A stretch of DNA of 64,000 nucleotides. Origin: Gemmatimonadaceae bacterium (GTDB taxonomy: Bacteria > Gemmatimonadota > Gemmatimonadetes > Gemmatimonadales > Gemmatimonadaceae). The stretch covers positions 1-64,000 of the forward strand of contig JAICWO010000019.1 of assembly GCA_025934775.1 (NCBI GenBank), written 5' to 3'. The notes beneath the pieces were generated by a model. That model had not been told where the DNA came from. It searched no databases and worked only from the letters and a program-made list of their open reading frames with translations. A program made the translations under genes and the position numbers. Of this stretch, positions 14,280 through 20,254 are shown in pieces; the stretch's first letter is position 1, and every line of letters begins with the position of its first letter.

Positions 14280-17069
14280 TCAGCTCGCGGAGGTCGATTC
14301 GAGCGTGCGCGCGACCTCTTCGGTGCGGTAGCACTCGATCACATCGCCGACCTTGATGTCGTTGAAATTCTCGACGCCGATGCCGCACTCGAAGCCTTCG
14401 CGAACTTCGCGAACGTCGTCCTTGAACCGCTTGAGCGAAGCAAGCGTGCCGTCGAACACTTCGACGCCGTCGCGGATCACGCGCACGCGACCCTGGCGGT
14501 TGATGATGCCGCTCCGCACCGAGCAGCCGGCGATCGTCCCGATGCGCGAGATCTTGAACACCTCGCGCACTTCGGCTTCGCCGAGCACCACCTCGCGCTC
14601 CTCGGGGCGCAGCATGCCTTCCATCGCGGCGCGTACGTCGTTGACCGCCTCGTAGATGATGCGGTACAGCTTGATGTCGACGCCCTCGCGCTCGGCCGCG
14701 GTGCGCGCGTTGTTGTCCGGGCGCACGTGGAAGCCGATGATGATCGCGCCCGACGCCTTCGCGAGCAGGATGTCGCTCTCGGTGATCGCGCCCACGCCGC
14801 GGTGAACGATCTCGACCTGCACTTCGCCGGTCGACAAGCGCCCCAGTGCGTCGGCGAGCGCTTCCGCCGGACCGCCCTGATCGGCCTTGATGAGAATGCG
14901 CAGCGTGCGGGTTTCGCCCGACGCGGCCTGCGCCATGAAGTCCTCGAGCGTGACGCCGCCGCGATTGCTGCGGCGGCTCTTCGCCTCTCGGTCGAGGCGC
15001 TCACGACGTTGTGCCACTTCGCGCGCAGCGGCCGCGTCTTCGACGACGAGCAGTTGGTCGCCGGCCATGGGAACGCCGGTGAAGCCGAGGACCTGCACGG
15101 GGATCGCGGGACCGGCCTGCTTCACGTTCTTGCCGCGCTCGTCGAGCAGCGCGCGCACGCGGCCGGAGTACATGCCGCAAATGAAATCGTCGCCGACCTT
15201 GAGCACGCCGTTCTGCACGAGGACCGTGGCCACCGGGCCCTTGCCGGGATCGAGCTGCGCTTCGACGACGGTGCCGGTCGCGCGCTTGTTCGGATTGGCT
15301 TTGAGATCGAGGATTTCCGCTTGCAGCAGCAACTGGTCGAGGAGCTGATCGACGTGCGTGCCCTTCTTCGCCGAAATCTCTGTGGCGAGGGTGGTGCCAC
15401 CGAATTCCTCGAGGACGACGTTGTGCTGCAGAAGCTCCTGCTTGACCTTGTTCGGATTCGCCTGCGGCAGATCGATCTTGTTGATCGCGACGATGAGCGG
15501 CACGCCCGCGTTCTTCGCATGCGAGATCGCTTCGATCGTCTGCGGCATCACCGAGTCGTCGGCCGCGACGACGAGCACCACGATATCCGTGACCTGGGCG
15601 CCGCGCGCACGCATCGCGGTGAACGCTTCGTGGCCCGGGGTATCGAGGAACGTGATGTTCTTGCCCGACGGCAGCGATACGTGATACGCGCCGATGTGCT
15701 GCGTGATGCCGCCAGCCTCGCCGGCGACGACGTTCGCGTGTCGGATGTAGTCGAGCAGCGACGTCTTGCCGTGATCGACGTGACCCATGATGGTCACGAT
15801 CGGAGGACGGGACTCGAGATCTTCCGGACGATCGGCTTCCGCCGCGACGCCGGCTTCCTCAGCCTGATATTCGTCTTCTCGAACAGCCTGGAAGCCGAAC
15901 TCGCCGGCGATGAGCTCGATCTGATCGAAGTCGAGGCGCTGGTTGATGGTGACCATCAACCCGAGATTCTTGAAGGCGAAGGCGACGATCTCGGTCGCGG
16001 GGACCTTTAGAATTTGCGCAAGCTCGCTGACCGTGATGAACTCGTTGACGCGAACCGTCTTCCGTTCGCGTTCGGCCTCGGCCGCGCGCGCGGCCTCGAG
16101 CTCCTCGCGCGACCCGCGGCGGAGATCGCTGGCCGTGCGGCGCGAAGGAGCGCCCCGCAACGTGGCCATGGTCTTCGAGATGTTCGCATCCACCGCTTCC
16201 TGATCGACCGCGCCGCGCTTGCCCTTCTTGCGGCGAGCGCCGCGATCCGCGACTCCGCTCGGTGCACCGCCGCCCGCGCCGCCACCACCACCAGGCGCTC
16301 CGCCACCGCCGCCACCACCTCCGCCGCGACGGTCGTCGCGACGACCACCGCCAGGACCACCGCCCGGCGCAGCCGAGGCAATCGGACGTGGCGGGAAACC
16401 GCCGCTGCTCGCGACGGGGCGCGGGCGCGGAGCACCCGGGGTCACCGGACGTGGACGCGGACGCTCTGCCGCCGCCGTTCCGCCGTGCGAGACCGGCGCG
16501 GGACGCGGTGCTTCCGCCTGCGCCGCCGCTGCGGGCGCACGCACCGGCTCGGCCTCGTGCTCGCCAGCGCGCGATTCGCGCTCCGCCTGTGCCGCGGCTT
16601 CGGCGGCAGCGGCTGCCGCCTCCTGCGCGCGCAGTGCTTCGATTCGCGCTGCCTCTTGGCGCGCGGCTTCGGCGGCGAGAGCCTCCTGTCGCGCGGTTTC
16701 CGCAGCCGCTGCTTCAGCGGCGGCCGCCGCGACGGCAGCCTGCTCCTCGGCGGCGGCTTGAACGTCGGCAGCCTTGCGGCGGCGGCGGACCGGCTCGGCG
16801 GCTGATGCCGGTGCGGCCGGCGCCGCTGGTTCCGGAGCCGCGGCGGTCGTACGACGCCGGCGTGCTGCGGGGGCGGGCGCGGCCGTCGCCTTCTCGGCTC
16901 GAACGCGCTTCTCTCGTTCCCAGCGCGCGCGAATGCGAGCGACCTGGTCGTCGGTGAGCATGCTCATGTGGCTGCGAACCGGAATGTCCATCTGCCGAAG
17001 AAGTGAGACCACTTCGTCGGTGGACACGCCGAATTCGTTCGCCATTTCATTGACTGAAAGCTTGCTCAA
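14280..17069 (-). CDS. infB: Translation initiation factor IF-2
   Basis: GTPase that delivers fMet-tRNA to the 30S subunit. The 929 residues comprise an N-terminal IF2_N module (1-50), an Ala/Glu-rich linker (60-200), a Pro/Arg and Gly-rich stretch (200-275), a second IF2_N module (about 335-390), the G domain with GHVDHGKT (429-436), DTPGHEA and NKIDLP, and beta-barrel C-terminal domains. The ATG overlaps the ylxQ-like stop (ATGA). The Gly run near 250-272 is longer than usual. Confidence 0.98.
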
Positions 17070-17407
17070 ACATCCTCCTCAGTGCCCTGTCGGGCCGACG
17101 TCACCAGATCACGAACTCCAGCCGCCAAATTCGCGTCGACGATGCCGACCACGGCGGTTTGCTCGCGACCAACAGCAGCACCCAGCTCGTCGGTCGAGGG
17201 CAATTCTATAAACCTAACGCGCCGCGCGTTGAGCAGCGGCACGATCTTCTCCAAGCTGTGCCTCGACGCATCCATCGCAACGACGGCGAGTTTCACCTTG
17301 TTCTTCTTCGCCGCTTCGCGAACCTGCTGTACTCCCACCACCGCGCCGCGAGCTCGAACGCCGAGGCCGATGAGTCGAAGCACGCGCTGCCGCACGACGG
17401 CATCCAT
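17066..17407 (-). CDS. YlxQ-like L7Ae-family RNA-binding protein
   Basis: About 113 residues of the L7Ae/L30e fold, with RLIGLGVRARGAVVGVQQVREA and KVKLAVVAMDASRHSLEKI typical of YlxQ proteins encoded between nusA and infB. An RNA target (K-turn) is expected, though it is not proven for YlxQ. The ATG at 17407 is one base after the nusA stop; an earlier in-frame ATG within nusA would add 17 basic residues and is less likely. Confidence 0.85.
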   Translation of the reverse strand: MDAVVRQRVLRLIGLGVRARGAVVGVQQVREAAKKNKVKLAVVAMDASRHSLEKIVPLLNARRVRFIELPSTDELGAAVGREQTAVVGIVDANLAAGVRDLVTSARQGTEEDV

Positions 17408-17408
17408 C

Positions 17409-18746
17409 TCAGCCCGCCGCCGGCTCTCCACCGCCACTCGTCTCGTCGCCGCCACCATCCTCCGTGGTCAGCTCGTCGATGAGCGCCATGATCCGATCCG
17501 CTTCCTCGGGCGCGATGCCGGGCAGCTTGAGAAAATCCTCACGATCGAGATCCATGATGTCGTTGAGCGTGCGGTACCCCGCCTCCTCGAGCACCGCCAC
17601 CGTGGCCGGCGGCATGCCCGCGATATCGGAGAGCCGCACATCCATCTCTTCGCCTTCTTCGGGCAGCGGCGCGAAGATCTGCCCTTCGCCACCCCGCTCG
17701 AGCCACTCGCGACTCGAATAGAGATCGATCTTCCAACCGGTGAGCTCGGAGGCAAGGCGCACGTTCTGCCCATTGCGGCCGATGGCGAGCGAGAGTTGAT
17801 CCTCGTCCACGACGGCCTGGATCGTCTTGGTCGCCGGATCACTGAAGACGCGCGCGACCTTGGCCGGCGCGAGCGCGAGCTTGGCGAACCGCTCGGGATC
17901 GGGCGACCACGGGACGATGTCGATTCGCTCGCCGTTCAGCTCATTGACCACGGCCTGCACGCGCGAGCCCTTGAGGCCGACGCACGCGCCGACCGGATCG
18001 ATCGAATCATCGCGCGAGAAGACGGCGATCTTCGTGCGGCTGCCCACCTCGCGCGCGGCGGCGCGAATCTCGACGATGTTCTGTTGGATCTCGGGGACCT
18101 CGAGCTTGAACAACGCCTTGACGAAGAGCGGGTCGCCGCGGCTCAAGATCAGACGCGGACCTTTGGGCGTTTCCTCGACGCGCTTCAAGACCGCGCGGAT
18201 CGGCTCGCCCTGGTGATAGTGCTCGCGATGATTCTGCTCGCGATACGGGATGATCGCTTCGGCTTCGCGGAACTTGTTGAGCATGACCACGAGCTTGCCG
18301 CGCTCGATCTGCTGGACTTCGCCGGACAGGAGATCGCCGACGCGCGTCGCGAACTCGTCGCGAATCCGGGTGCGCTCGCCCTCGCGGACGCGCTGGATGA
18401 TGCGCTGCTTCGCGGCCTGCACGGCCGCGCGGCCGAATACGGCGAAGTCGACCGGCTCCTCCATGACGTCGCCCAGCTCGAAGCTCTCGTCGAACGCCTT
18501 GGCGTCGTCGATCGAGATCTGGTTGCTCGCGTCCTCGATGGTCGCGACGACCGTCTTGAGGAGAACGATGCGAATGTCACCCTTGCCGTCATCGATATCG
18601 ACTTCGGCCTGGACGTTCGGACCGTATTTCTTGGCGAGGGCGGCCATGATGCCGTCCTGGAGCAAGCCGTACAGTTCCGCGCGATCGAGTTGCTTCGTGT
18701 TCGACACCTCGCGAAACGCGGCGAGAATCTCTGCAGAACTGACCAT
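17409..18746 (-). CDS. nusA: Transcription termination/antitermination factor NusA
   Basis: Binds RNA polymerase and nascent RNA, promoting pausing and intrinsic termination. The 445 residues run: N-terminal domain (1-125), S1 domain (about 135-200, with GKLVVMLNKFREAEAIIPYRE), two KH domains (about 200-340, KIAVFSRDDSIDPVGACVGL and IGRNGQNVRLASELTGWKI) and a C-terminal helix-hairpin-helix region with LPGIAPEEADRI. The Shine-Dalgarno GAGGGG precedes the ATG. Its own operon leader contains an intrinsic terminator (19286-19316). Confidence 0.98.
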   Translation of the reverse strand: MVSSAEILAAFREVSNTKQLDRAELYGLLQDGIMAALAKKYGPNVQAEVDIDDGKGDIRIVLLKTVVATIEDASNQISIDDAKAFDESFELGDVMEEPVDFAVFGRAAVQAAKQRIIQRVREGERTRIRDEFATRVGDLLSGEVQQIERGKLVVMLNKFREAEAIIPYREQNHREHYHQGEPIRAVLKRVEETPKGPRLILSRGDPLFVKALFKLEVPEIQQNIVEIRAAAREVGSRTKIAVFSRDDSIDPVGACVGLKGSRVQAVVNELNGERIDIVPWSPDPERFAKLALAPAKVARVFSDPATKTIQAVVDEDQLSLAIGRNGQNVRLASELTGWKIDLYSSREWLERGGEGQIFAPLPEEGEEMDVRLSDIAGMPPATVAVLEEAGYRTLNDIMDLDREDFLKLPGIAPEEADRIMALIDELTTEDGGGDETSGGGEPAAG

Positions 18747-18805: not shown

Positions 18806-19261
18806 TTACATGTGAAACGCCAGCCGCGCTTCCTTGACGTCAGCGAGCGGTACACGCCGCTGCTCCCCTTGCTTCGGTTCCAGCAGCACGATCTCCGAGC
18901 CCGGTTCTCCCTCCACCGCGAGGATTTTGCCCTCGAACCGGCCGCCGTGCACCGGGCTGAGGATGTTCACCCACTCACCGACGAATCGCCGCCATTCGAC
19001 CGAGGTCCGTACCGGGCGTTCGCCCGGCGACGAGACCTGCAGCACGTACTGCGGCGATACCAATTCACTGCCATCCAGCCGCGCCTCGAGCACGCGTGAC
19101 GCGCGGGCACAATCGTCGACCGTGACCGCCGACCCGTCGCGCCGATCGATGCGAACCTCGATCAACGGCCGCGTCCGCGTCCCGCCACGCCGAAGCTCAA
19201 CCAAGTCGTATCCGACCGTGTCAAGCTCTGCCACGACAACATCTTCCAGCGCGTCCTTCAC
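18806..19261 (-). CDS. rimP: Ribosome maturation factor RimP
   Basis: Needed for 30S assembly. The 151-residue product has ELDTVGYDLVELRRG, VDDCARASRVLEARLD, YVLQVSSPGERPVRT and a C-terminal SH3-like domain. I prefer the GTG at 19261, which matches the usual RimP length. An ATG at 19315 is also in frame, but its 18 extra codons lie inside a terminator hairpin and its U tract. First gene of the rimP-nusA-infB operon. Confidence 0.93.
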   Translation of the reverse strand: MKDALEDVVVAELDTVGYDLVELRRGGTRTRPLIEVRIDRRDGSAVTVDDCARASRVLEARLDGSELVSPQYVLQVSSPGERPVRTSVEWRRFVGEWVNILSPVHGGRFEGKILAVEGEPGSEIVLLEPKQGEQRRVPLADVKEARLAFHM

Positions 19262-19285: not shown

Positions 19286-19316
19286 ACAAAAAAATGTGGG
19301 GAGCATCCCCCACATT
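19286..19316 (-). terminator. Intrinsic terminator in the rimP-nusA leader (candidate attenuator)
   Basis: On the minus strand a perfect 9-bp stem AATGTGGGG/CCCCACATT with a 6-nt loop runs directly into seven T residues. It ends 25 nt before the rimP GTG. A promoter at 19351-19379 lies upstream, so this terminator sits between promoter and first gene. Confidence 0.85.
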
Positions 19317-19350
19317 CCGCTCGCGAGCCCCGGGGCCGCGCAGCATGTCT

Positions 19351-19379
19351 AACCTACGACGGGACGGCGGGAGGGGCAA
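19351..19379 (-). promoter_or_regulatory. Candidate promoter of the rimP-nusA-infB operon
   Basis: TTGCCC (19374-19379), 17-nt spacer, TAGGTT (19351-19356). The predicted start near 19344 lies about 28 nt before the terminator stem. The rest of the 233-bp gap up to pgeF (19380-19549) shows no gene or clear signal. Confidence 0.55.
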
Positions 19380-19549
19380 GTGGGGTGAAACGGCGCGGAC
19401 GGACTCGATCGCTGCTCGCAATGGTTCCGAGTGGTGGGTTGCGTCGTGTGTTGCGAGTTCTCAAACGCGAAACCCGCCACCCGCAACCGACGACCCGCGA
19501 CCATTGCGACCGCGCCGAGCAGCTCGCCGTTCTGCGCTGTTGTTGGCTG

Positions 19550-20254
19550 TTATTGAGGAGCGATGAGGACACCGATCTGCCTCCCGCTATCCCCTGCCCG
19601 GTGCGAGAAGAAGCGATCGTTGTCGCACCGGGTGCACGACGCGCTCGTCGTGATATGGCGAACACCTCTCGCGCGCGCGTGTTCGGCGATCAGTGCGCGT
19701 AGATCCACCGTCGCCGGCTTGCCCGGATCACGTCCGGTGAGCTGCGTGTAGACCTCCGCGCTCACCTCATAGCAGTCGCCACAGATGGACGGGCCCGTGT
19801 GGAGGCGCAGATCGCTCGGCGCGCAGCCGCGCGTCTCGAGGGCGTCGATCGCGCGCTCGACGATGCGGCTCGCGGTGCCGCGCCATCCCGAATGCAGGAG
19901 CGCGATCGCGCCCGACGGATGGACGATGAACACGGGCACGCAGTCGGCCACCGTCACGGCGAGCGCGGTTCCGCGTTCCATCGCGAGGTGTCCGTCGGCC
20001 TCGTTCCCGCGCAGCCAGCCCTGCCATCCGGGCTCGTGCACGAGAATGTGCGTTCCGTGGATTTGTCTCGCCGTCGCGAGGCGGCCGCCGTTCGGCGAAA
20101 GCTCCTCGCGCAGTGCATCCCAGCGGCCCATGACGTCGCGCACCGGCTCATCGCCGTTGACGCCGAACGTACCTACCGCCCGCGTCGTCGTGAATGCACG
20201 GACCCCGAACGCGGCGAGCTCGGAGACGATTTCCGATTCGCCGGCGATGCTCAT
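19550..20254 (-). CDS. pgeF: PgeF/YfiH family (polyphenol oxidase/peptidoglycan editing factor)
   Basis: A 234-residue member of the YfiH/YlmD (DUF152) family. Metal and active-site motifs are present: [49 protein letters not shown] and [15 protein letters not shown]. In E. coli PgeF removes mis-incorporated L-Ser from muropeptide precursors; family members also show copper oxidase or purine phosphorylase-like activity. It follows murA with a 4-nt overlap (ATGA), which fits the cell-wall role. Confidence 0.9.

Follow-up and report, generated by a model that had tools for sequence, protein, structure and literature searches.

A conserved terminator ahead of the rimP-nusA-infB operon of Gemmatimonadota, a probable attenuator acting through NusA

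An intrinsic terminator placed between the promoter of an operon and its first gene raises two questions: does it control the operon, and, if so, to which of the encoded products does it respond? We addressed these for the rimP-nusA-infB operon in a 64,000-nucleotide stretch of DNA (here called the window) from a Gemmatimonadaceae genome of 4.88 Mb in 47 contigs. NusA, encoded within this operon, stimulates intrinsic termination.

Anatomy of the leader

The genes of the locus lie on the minus strand in the order murA, pgeF, a gap of about 290 nt, rimP, nusA, an L7Ae-family gene and infB. pgeF, the upstream neighbor, occupies positions 19550 to 20254, and rimP occupies 18806 to 19261, its likely start (GTG 19261) having been placed by comparison with the sequences of relatives. 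nusA (17409 to 18746; TIGR01953, 379 bits), the L7Ae-family (YlxQ-like) gene (17066 to 17458; PF01248) and infB, which encodes IF-2 (14280 to 17069; TIGR00487, 811 bits), all scored above the cut-offs. The leader, on the same strand, consists of a promoter (19379 to 19351), a hairpin termed P1 (19344 to 19319) and a terminator termed P2 (19318 to 19288, T-run included), after which rimP-nusA-L7Ae-infB follows.

The P2 hairpin (19291 to 19318, minus strand) has a G-rich 5′ arm, AATGTGGGGG (19316 to 19307), the loop ATGC (19306 to 19303) and a C-rich 3′ arm, TCCCCACATT (19302 to 19293), which together form 10 core pairs plus two G-U pairs; a stretch of T's comes next, read as a U7 tract (19288 to 19294; minus strand) and then GTTCT, and this T-run is conserved among relatives. 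The segment from 19286 to 19325 folds at −18.8 kcal/mol (z = −3.6, with 0 of 200 shuffles equal to it), and the terminator score of 37.5 was equaled by 0 of 300 dinucleotide shuffles of P2's own region. A covariance model built from P2 (R1) matched the P2 site once in the whole genome (E = 2e-7), the sole other match listed being the antisense of P2 itself (E = 2.6). The stem begins about 26 to 28 nt past the predicted transcription start, and the U-tract ends 26 nt before GTG 19261; a sequence-only reading of the locus had placed an intrinsic terminator about 28 nt past the start and 25 nt before rimP, and the fold and the shuffles confirm that terminator.

The promoter comprises a −35 element, TTGCCC (19374 to 19379, minus strand), and a −10 element, TAGGTT (19351 to 19356, minus strand), separated by 17 nt, with transcription predicted to start at about 19344. 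A generic consensus promoter scan did not pick it up. We nevertheless accept it because comparison with relatives supports it: most have TTGAC at the equivalent place, 84% score at least 8 of 12 there (versus 7.5% of shuffles), and the spacer is exactly 17 nt in 87 of the 92 with a scored promoter. P2 in Gemmatimonadaceae usually lies 25 to 39 nt downstream of a TTGAC-N17-TAnnnT box. The anatomy first proposed, a promoter and a terminator ahead of rimP, therefore stands, but it overlooked P1, a hairpin of the form GCT-G-CGCG-GCC..GGC-T-CGCG-AGC (19319 to 19344, minus strand) that fills the space from the predicted start to the terminator and was recognized through folding z-scores.

Conservation of the terminator and its surroundings

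RimP was detected in 134 of 148 genomes of the family, and our leader sample covered 110 Gemmatimonadaceae leaders from 33 genera. P2 stood just ahead of rimP in 110/110 (0 matches in shuffles), with a T-run of 6 to 9 in every case and a purine as the next nucleotide in 106. In an alignment of 44 leaders, the stem was 99.3% paired over 440 cells, and compensatory changes appeared at two stem pairs (A-U to G-C in eight sequences, G-C to C-G in one); slid controls gave none. Run over 298 genomes of the phylum, R1 produced one match each in 98; the matches compared within the family sit at rimP, and of four matches in another family, f2, one was followed up. An equivalent terminator, with the same layout and different stem letters, was present in 54 of 54 leaders from eight other families (f2 to f8 and f11). 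An automated scan, which gave nothing in shuffled sequence, detected 53 of these; the remaining one, L217, carries just four U's and was identified by eye. The proteobacterial loci retrieved, and that of E. coli, likewise show a GGG/CCC terminator in this position. Conservation of the hairpin in relatives, which the sequence-only reading had named as a check on itself, thus holds both within the family and beyond it.

This comparison bears on a second proposal, namely, that a ribosome starting at an ATG within the 5′ arm of P2 (19313 to 19315, minus strand) would open the hairpin and allow read-through, making the element a translation-coupled switch. In this genome, the frame from the ATG at 19315 does run open into rimP, giving MWGMLPTFFCSERLPRLHVK, as such a switch would require. 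However, it is not conserved as a reading frame: 29 of the 110 leaders have an in-frame, open stem start, close to the number expected by chance if one frame in three fits and a stop occasionally intervenes, and just 3 of the 33 genera have it in every member. The ATG is replaced by GTG, with a compensating C on the other arm, in 8 of the 44 aligned sequences, spread over several genera, a swap that amounts to a compensated base pair; the upstream region, furthermore, is taken up by P1. Because the frame occurs at chance level and the A/G change is compensated, those tblastn matches that start from the first residue of the extended RimP reflect conserved hairpin DNA and not a conserved peptide. 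We consider the switch very improbable.

It might also be argued that the terminator serves only to end murA-pgeF transcripts and that rimP has a promoter of its own downstream of it, a condition under which the attenuator reading would fall. Of the 107 leaders with enough upstream sequence, 97 do have pgeF ahead of them on the same strand, and a scan of 3 kb on the minus strand found no terminator-like site besides registers of P2. Against this, the hairpin is separated from pgeF by a conserved promoter, and the 26 nt from U-tract to rimP are too few to hold another (in some f2 genomes, the distance shrinks to between zero and a few nucleotides). Moreover, the hairpin is kept in the 10 of 107 leaders that have no detectable pgeF, and the equivalent hairpin of E. 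coli lies downstream of metY rather than pgeF. We therefore give this explanation hardly any credence, although P2 may end pgeF transcripts as well.

P1 is kept in most genera; its sequence varies too much for an alignment, and it is folding z-scores that support it, the segment folding better than shuffles with a mean z of −1.7 ± 0.18 over 29 genera, 21 of them below −1. In the window, P1 and P2 abut and do not overlap. An alternative is classical attenuation, in which P1, as a whole or through its 3′ half, captures the 5′ arm of the terminator on some signal. Two genera offer what such a model would need: in all nine leaders of g23 (CATTCCG with CGGAGTG) and both of g4 (ACACT with AGTGT), a segment lying upstream can pair with the base of the terminator 5′ arm, and partial overlaps with the arm are predicted in several further genera, e.g., g22, g16 and g18. 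The g23 and g4 hairpin would exclude the 5′ arm, which makes it a possible lineage-specific antiterminator, and it could add RNA-based control on top of the terminator. However, the window and its genus lack the pairing, and of the 30 genera tested, more than half are predicted to have none; P2 still forms in the full-length fold of every leader printed, and minimal leaders of f2 (see below) are too short to hold a competing structure. An antiterminator common to all genera was looked for and not found. As an account of the element at large, classical attenuation is thus distinctly unlikely. P1 probably helps the terminator to fold or acts beside it; across the phylum, it is, on comparative grounds, apparently dispensable.

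Two sets of leaders are recorded here in their own right. The overlapping upstream hairpin was seen in L086, L103, L107, L109, L113, L115, L122, L125 and L127 (g23) and in L126 and L129 (g4). In four f5 leaders (L228, L229, L232 and L267), a T-run follows P1 as well, giving the look of tandem terminators before rimP or nusA, which is reminiscent of the double terminator of gammaproteobacteria.

Loci without rimP and the minimal f2 leaders

Genomes that lack rimP form a natural experiment which separates rimP from nusA as the controlled gene. A phylum-wide search left 20 genomes with no RimP_N match, 16 of which have nusA; in one genome, G215, a divergent rimP separates the hairpin from nusA, and this genome was left out of the rimP-less set. 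In 15 genomes of eight genera and two families (g38, g45, g53, g55, g56 and g59 in f2; g74 and g78 in f5), rimP is absent from the locus and the terminator still stands directly before nusA. The hairpin lies about 106 to 250 nt ahead of the NusA_N domain, too short a gap for a rimP gene to fit, and tblastn with 18 RimP proteins gave no convincing match at these loci. Genus g38 has both arrangements, the leader preceding rimP in G175 and an alignable promoter and leader preceding nusA in G157, G165 and G238. Since these 15 loci keep the terminator before nusA, the element follows nusA and, judged from gene order, belongs to it rather than to rimP; for the same reason, RimP cannot be its general sensor.

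The 15 genomes (G157, G165, G170, G176, G193, G198, G202, G210, G216, G217, G224, G226, G232, G238 and G242) have no RimP_N match anywhere and appear to have lost this conserved ribosome maturation factor.

In part of f2, the leader is bare: TTGACA, 16 nt, a −10 element, 10 to 13 nt and a GCGGGC-loop-GCCCGC hairpin, followed by T8 near or touching the rimP ATG. The terminated RNA predicted in some of these genomes is 32 to 35 nt long (about 33 nt). With so little RNA ahead of termination, no riboswitch, protein-binding domain or antiterminator would fit, and control would therefore have to act on the terminating polymerase itself. These leaders are a minimal template on which to ask whether a terminator can sense NusA unaided. 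In five of them (L198, L205, L209, L210 and L250), the eight T's abut or nearly abut the rimP ATG, and no obvious Shine-Dalgarno sequence is seen.

Known relatives and the controlling factor

The motif and the NusA idea are already known. The "rimP-leader" was described in 2010 by Naville and Gautheret, who considered NusA the best candidate for its sensor (PMC2965389). Like the leader studied here, it has a short G-rich/C-rich terminator and a T-run ahead of rimP-nusA-infB, a conserved stem sequence and no general antiterminator; its terminator lies 4 to 130 nt before the gene start, a range that takes in the distance found in the window. Its stem is GGGc/gCCC and that of the window TGTGGGG/CCCCACA; GGG/CCC is kept, the flanking letters differ, and other Gemmatimonadota, in part of f2, have GCGGGC/GCCCGC. 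Unlike the published motif, the element described here has an extra hairpin upstream (P1) and is kept before nusA after rimP loss. An Rfam search of the window returned chance matches only and no known RNA. RF01770, the gammaproteobacterial rimP leader, matched neither the window nor the relatives tested (the E. coli MG1655 control scored 102 bits), and membership among rimP-leaders is therefore meant in a broad sense only: locus and final terminator are shared with RF01770, whereas in gammaproteobacteria a second terminator/antiterminator may be present further upstream in the leader (PMC2965389).

Autogenous attenuation by NusA has been proposed for E. coli and for Streptococcus agalactiae, where, as reported for gbs0413-0418, termination occurs 31 nt past the start, before rimP-nusA-infB (PMC4448216); S. 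agalactiae is a Firmicute and its start was mapped by RNA-seq, whereas that of the window is predicted. In Bacillus subtilis, the operon leader likewise contains an intrinsic terminator, and NusA is autoregulated through NusA-stimulated termination there (Mondal et al. 2016, as cited in PMC12288461). By that account, NusA dependence has been demonstrated in B. subtilis, whereas in Gemmatimonadota the role of NusA is inferred. The B. subtilis leader is also longer, about 180 nt (PMC2965389) versus about 58 nt to termination in the window. The literature searched contained no paper on such an attenuator in Gemmatimonadota; as far as it shows, what is new is the occurrence in this phylum, the persistence of the element in front of nusA where rimP has been lost, and the minimal form of 33 nt.

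We think it fairly probable that the leader is the Gemmatimonadota form of the rimP-nusA attenuator, through which NusA brakes its own production by way of termination. NusA is the obvious factor because it stimulates intrinsic termination, because it is encoded in the operon and because the B. subtilis leader offers a precedent; both its part as the sensed factor and the direction of the response are drawn by analogy. Polymerase would start and, about 27 nt on, meet a strong intrinsic terminator. At high NusA levels, polymerase carrying NusA would pause and terminate there, yielding a transcript of about 58 nt; at low levels, more polymerases would read into (rimP-)nusA-L7Ae-infB, and NusA would be restored. 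The sequence-only reading, which saw a promoter-proximal attenuator with NusA as its likeliest controller, gains support from the conserved hairpin and promoter and from the rimP-less genomes. If correct, a known, essential feedback loop extends to the phylum Gemmatimonadota.

One feature counts against NusA: terminators of B. subtilis that depend on NusA or NusG frequently show a weak hairpin or a break in the distal U-tract, whereas the P2 hairpin is strong and is followed by U7. The purine that follows U6-7 in nearly all family leaders may, on weak grounds, be a B. subtilis-like interruption of the U-tract. Alternatively, feedback could be exerted by RimP, the L7Ae-like protein or IF-2, which the operon also encodes, or the terminator could respond generally to polymerase speed or nucleoside triphosphates; sequence cannot name the sensor, and all three of these genes are on the same transcript as nusA. 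However, RimP is out as a general sensor, and the published studies of other phyla favor NusA, so that we regard this explanation as unlikely. A broader proposal within the NusA reading, put forward tentatively and with rather less than even confidence, is that the rimP-leader is really a nusA element whose terminator alone would be the ancestral and sufficient NusA sensor, structured leaders being later additions; it would have survived independent losses of rimP, shrunk to about 33 nt in one lineage and acquired a competing hairpin in g23 and g4.

The gap between pgeF and the promoter also contains an imperfect inverted repeat of about 127 nt (19391 to 19520, minus strand; DNA fold z = −3.6). 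Several partial copies, with 71 to 86% identity, occur elsewhere in the genome, and the repeat appears to be a dispersed palindromic element of a REP- or MITE-like kind.
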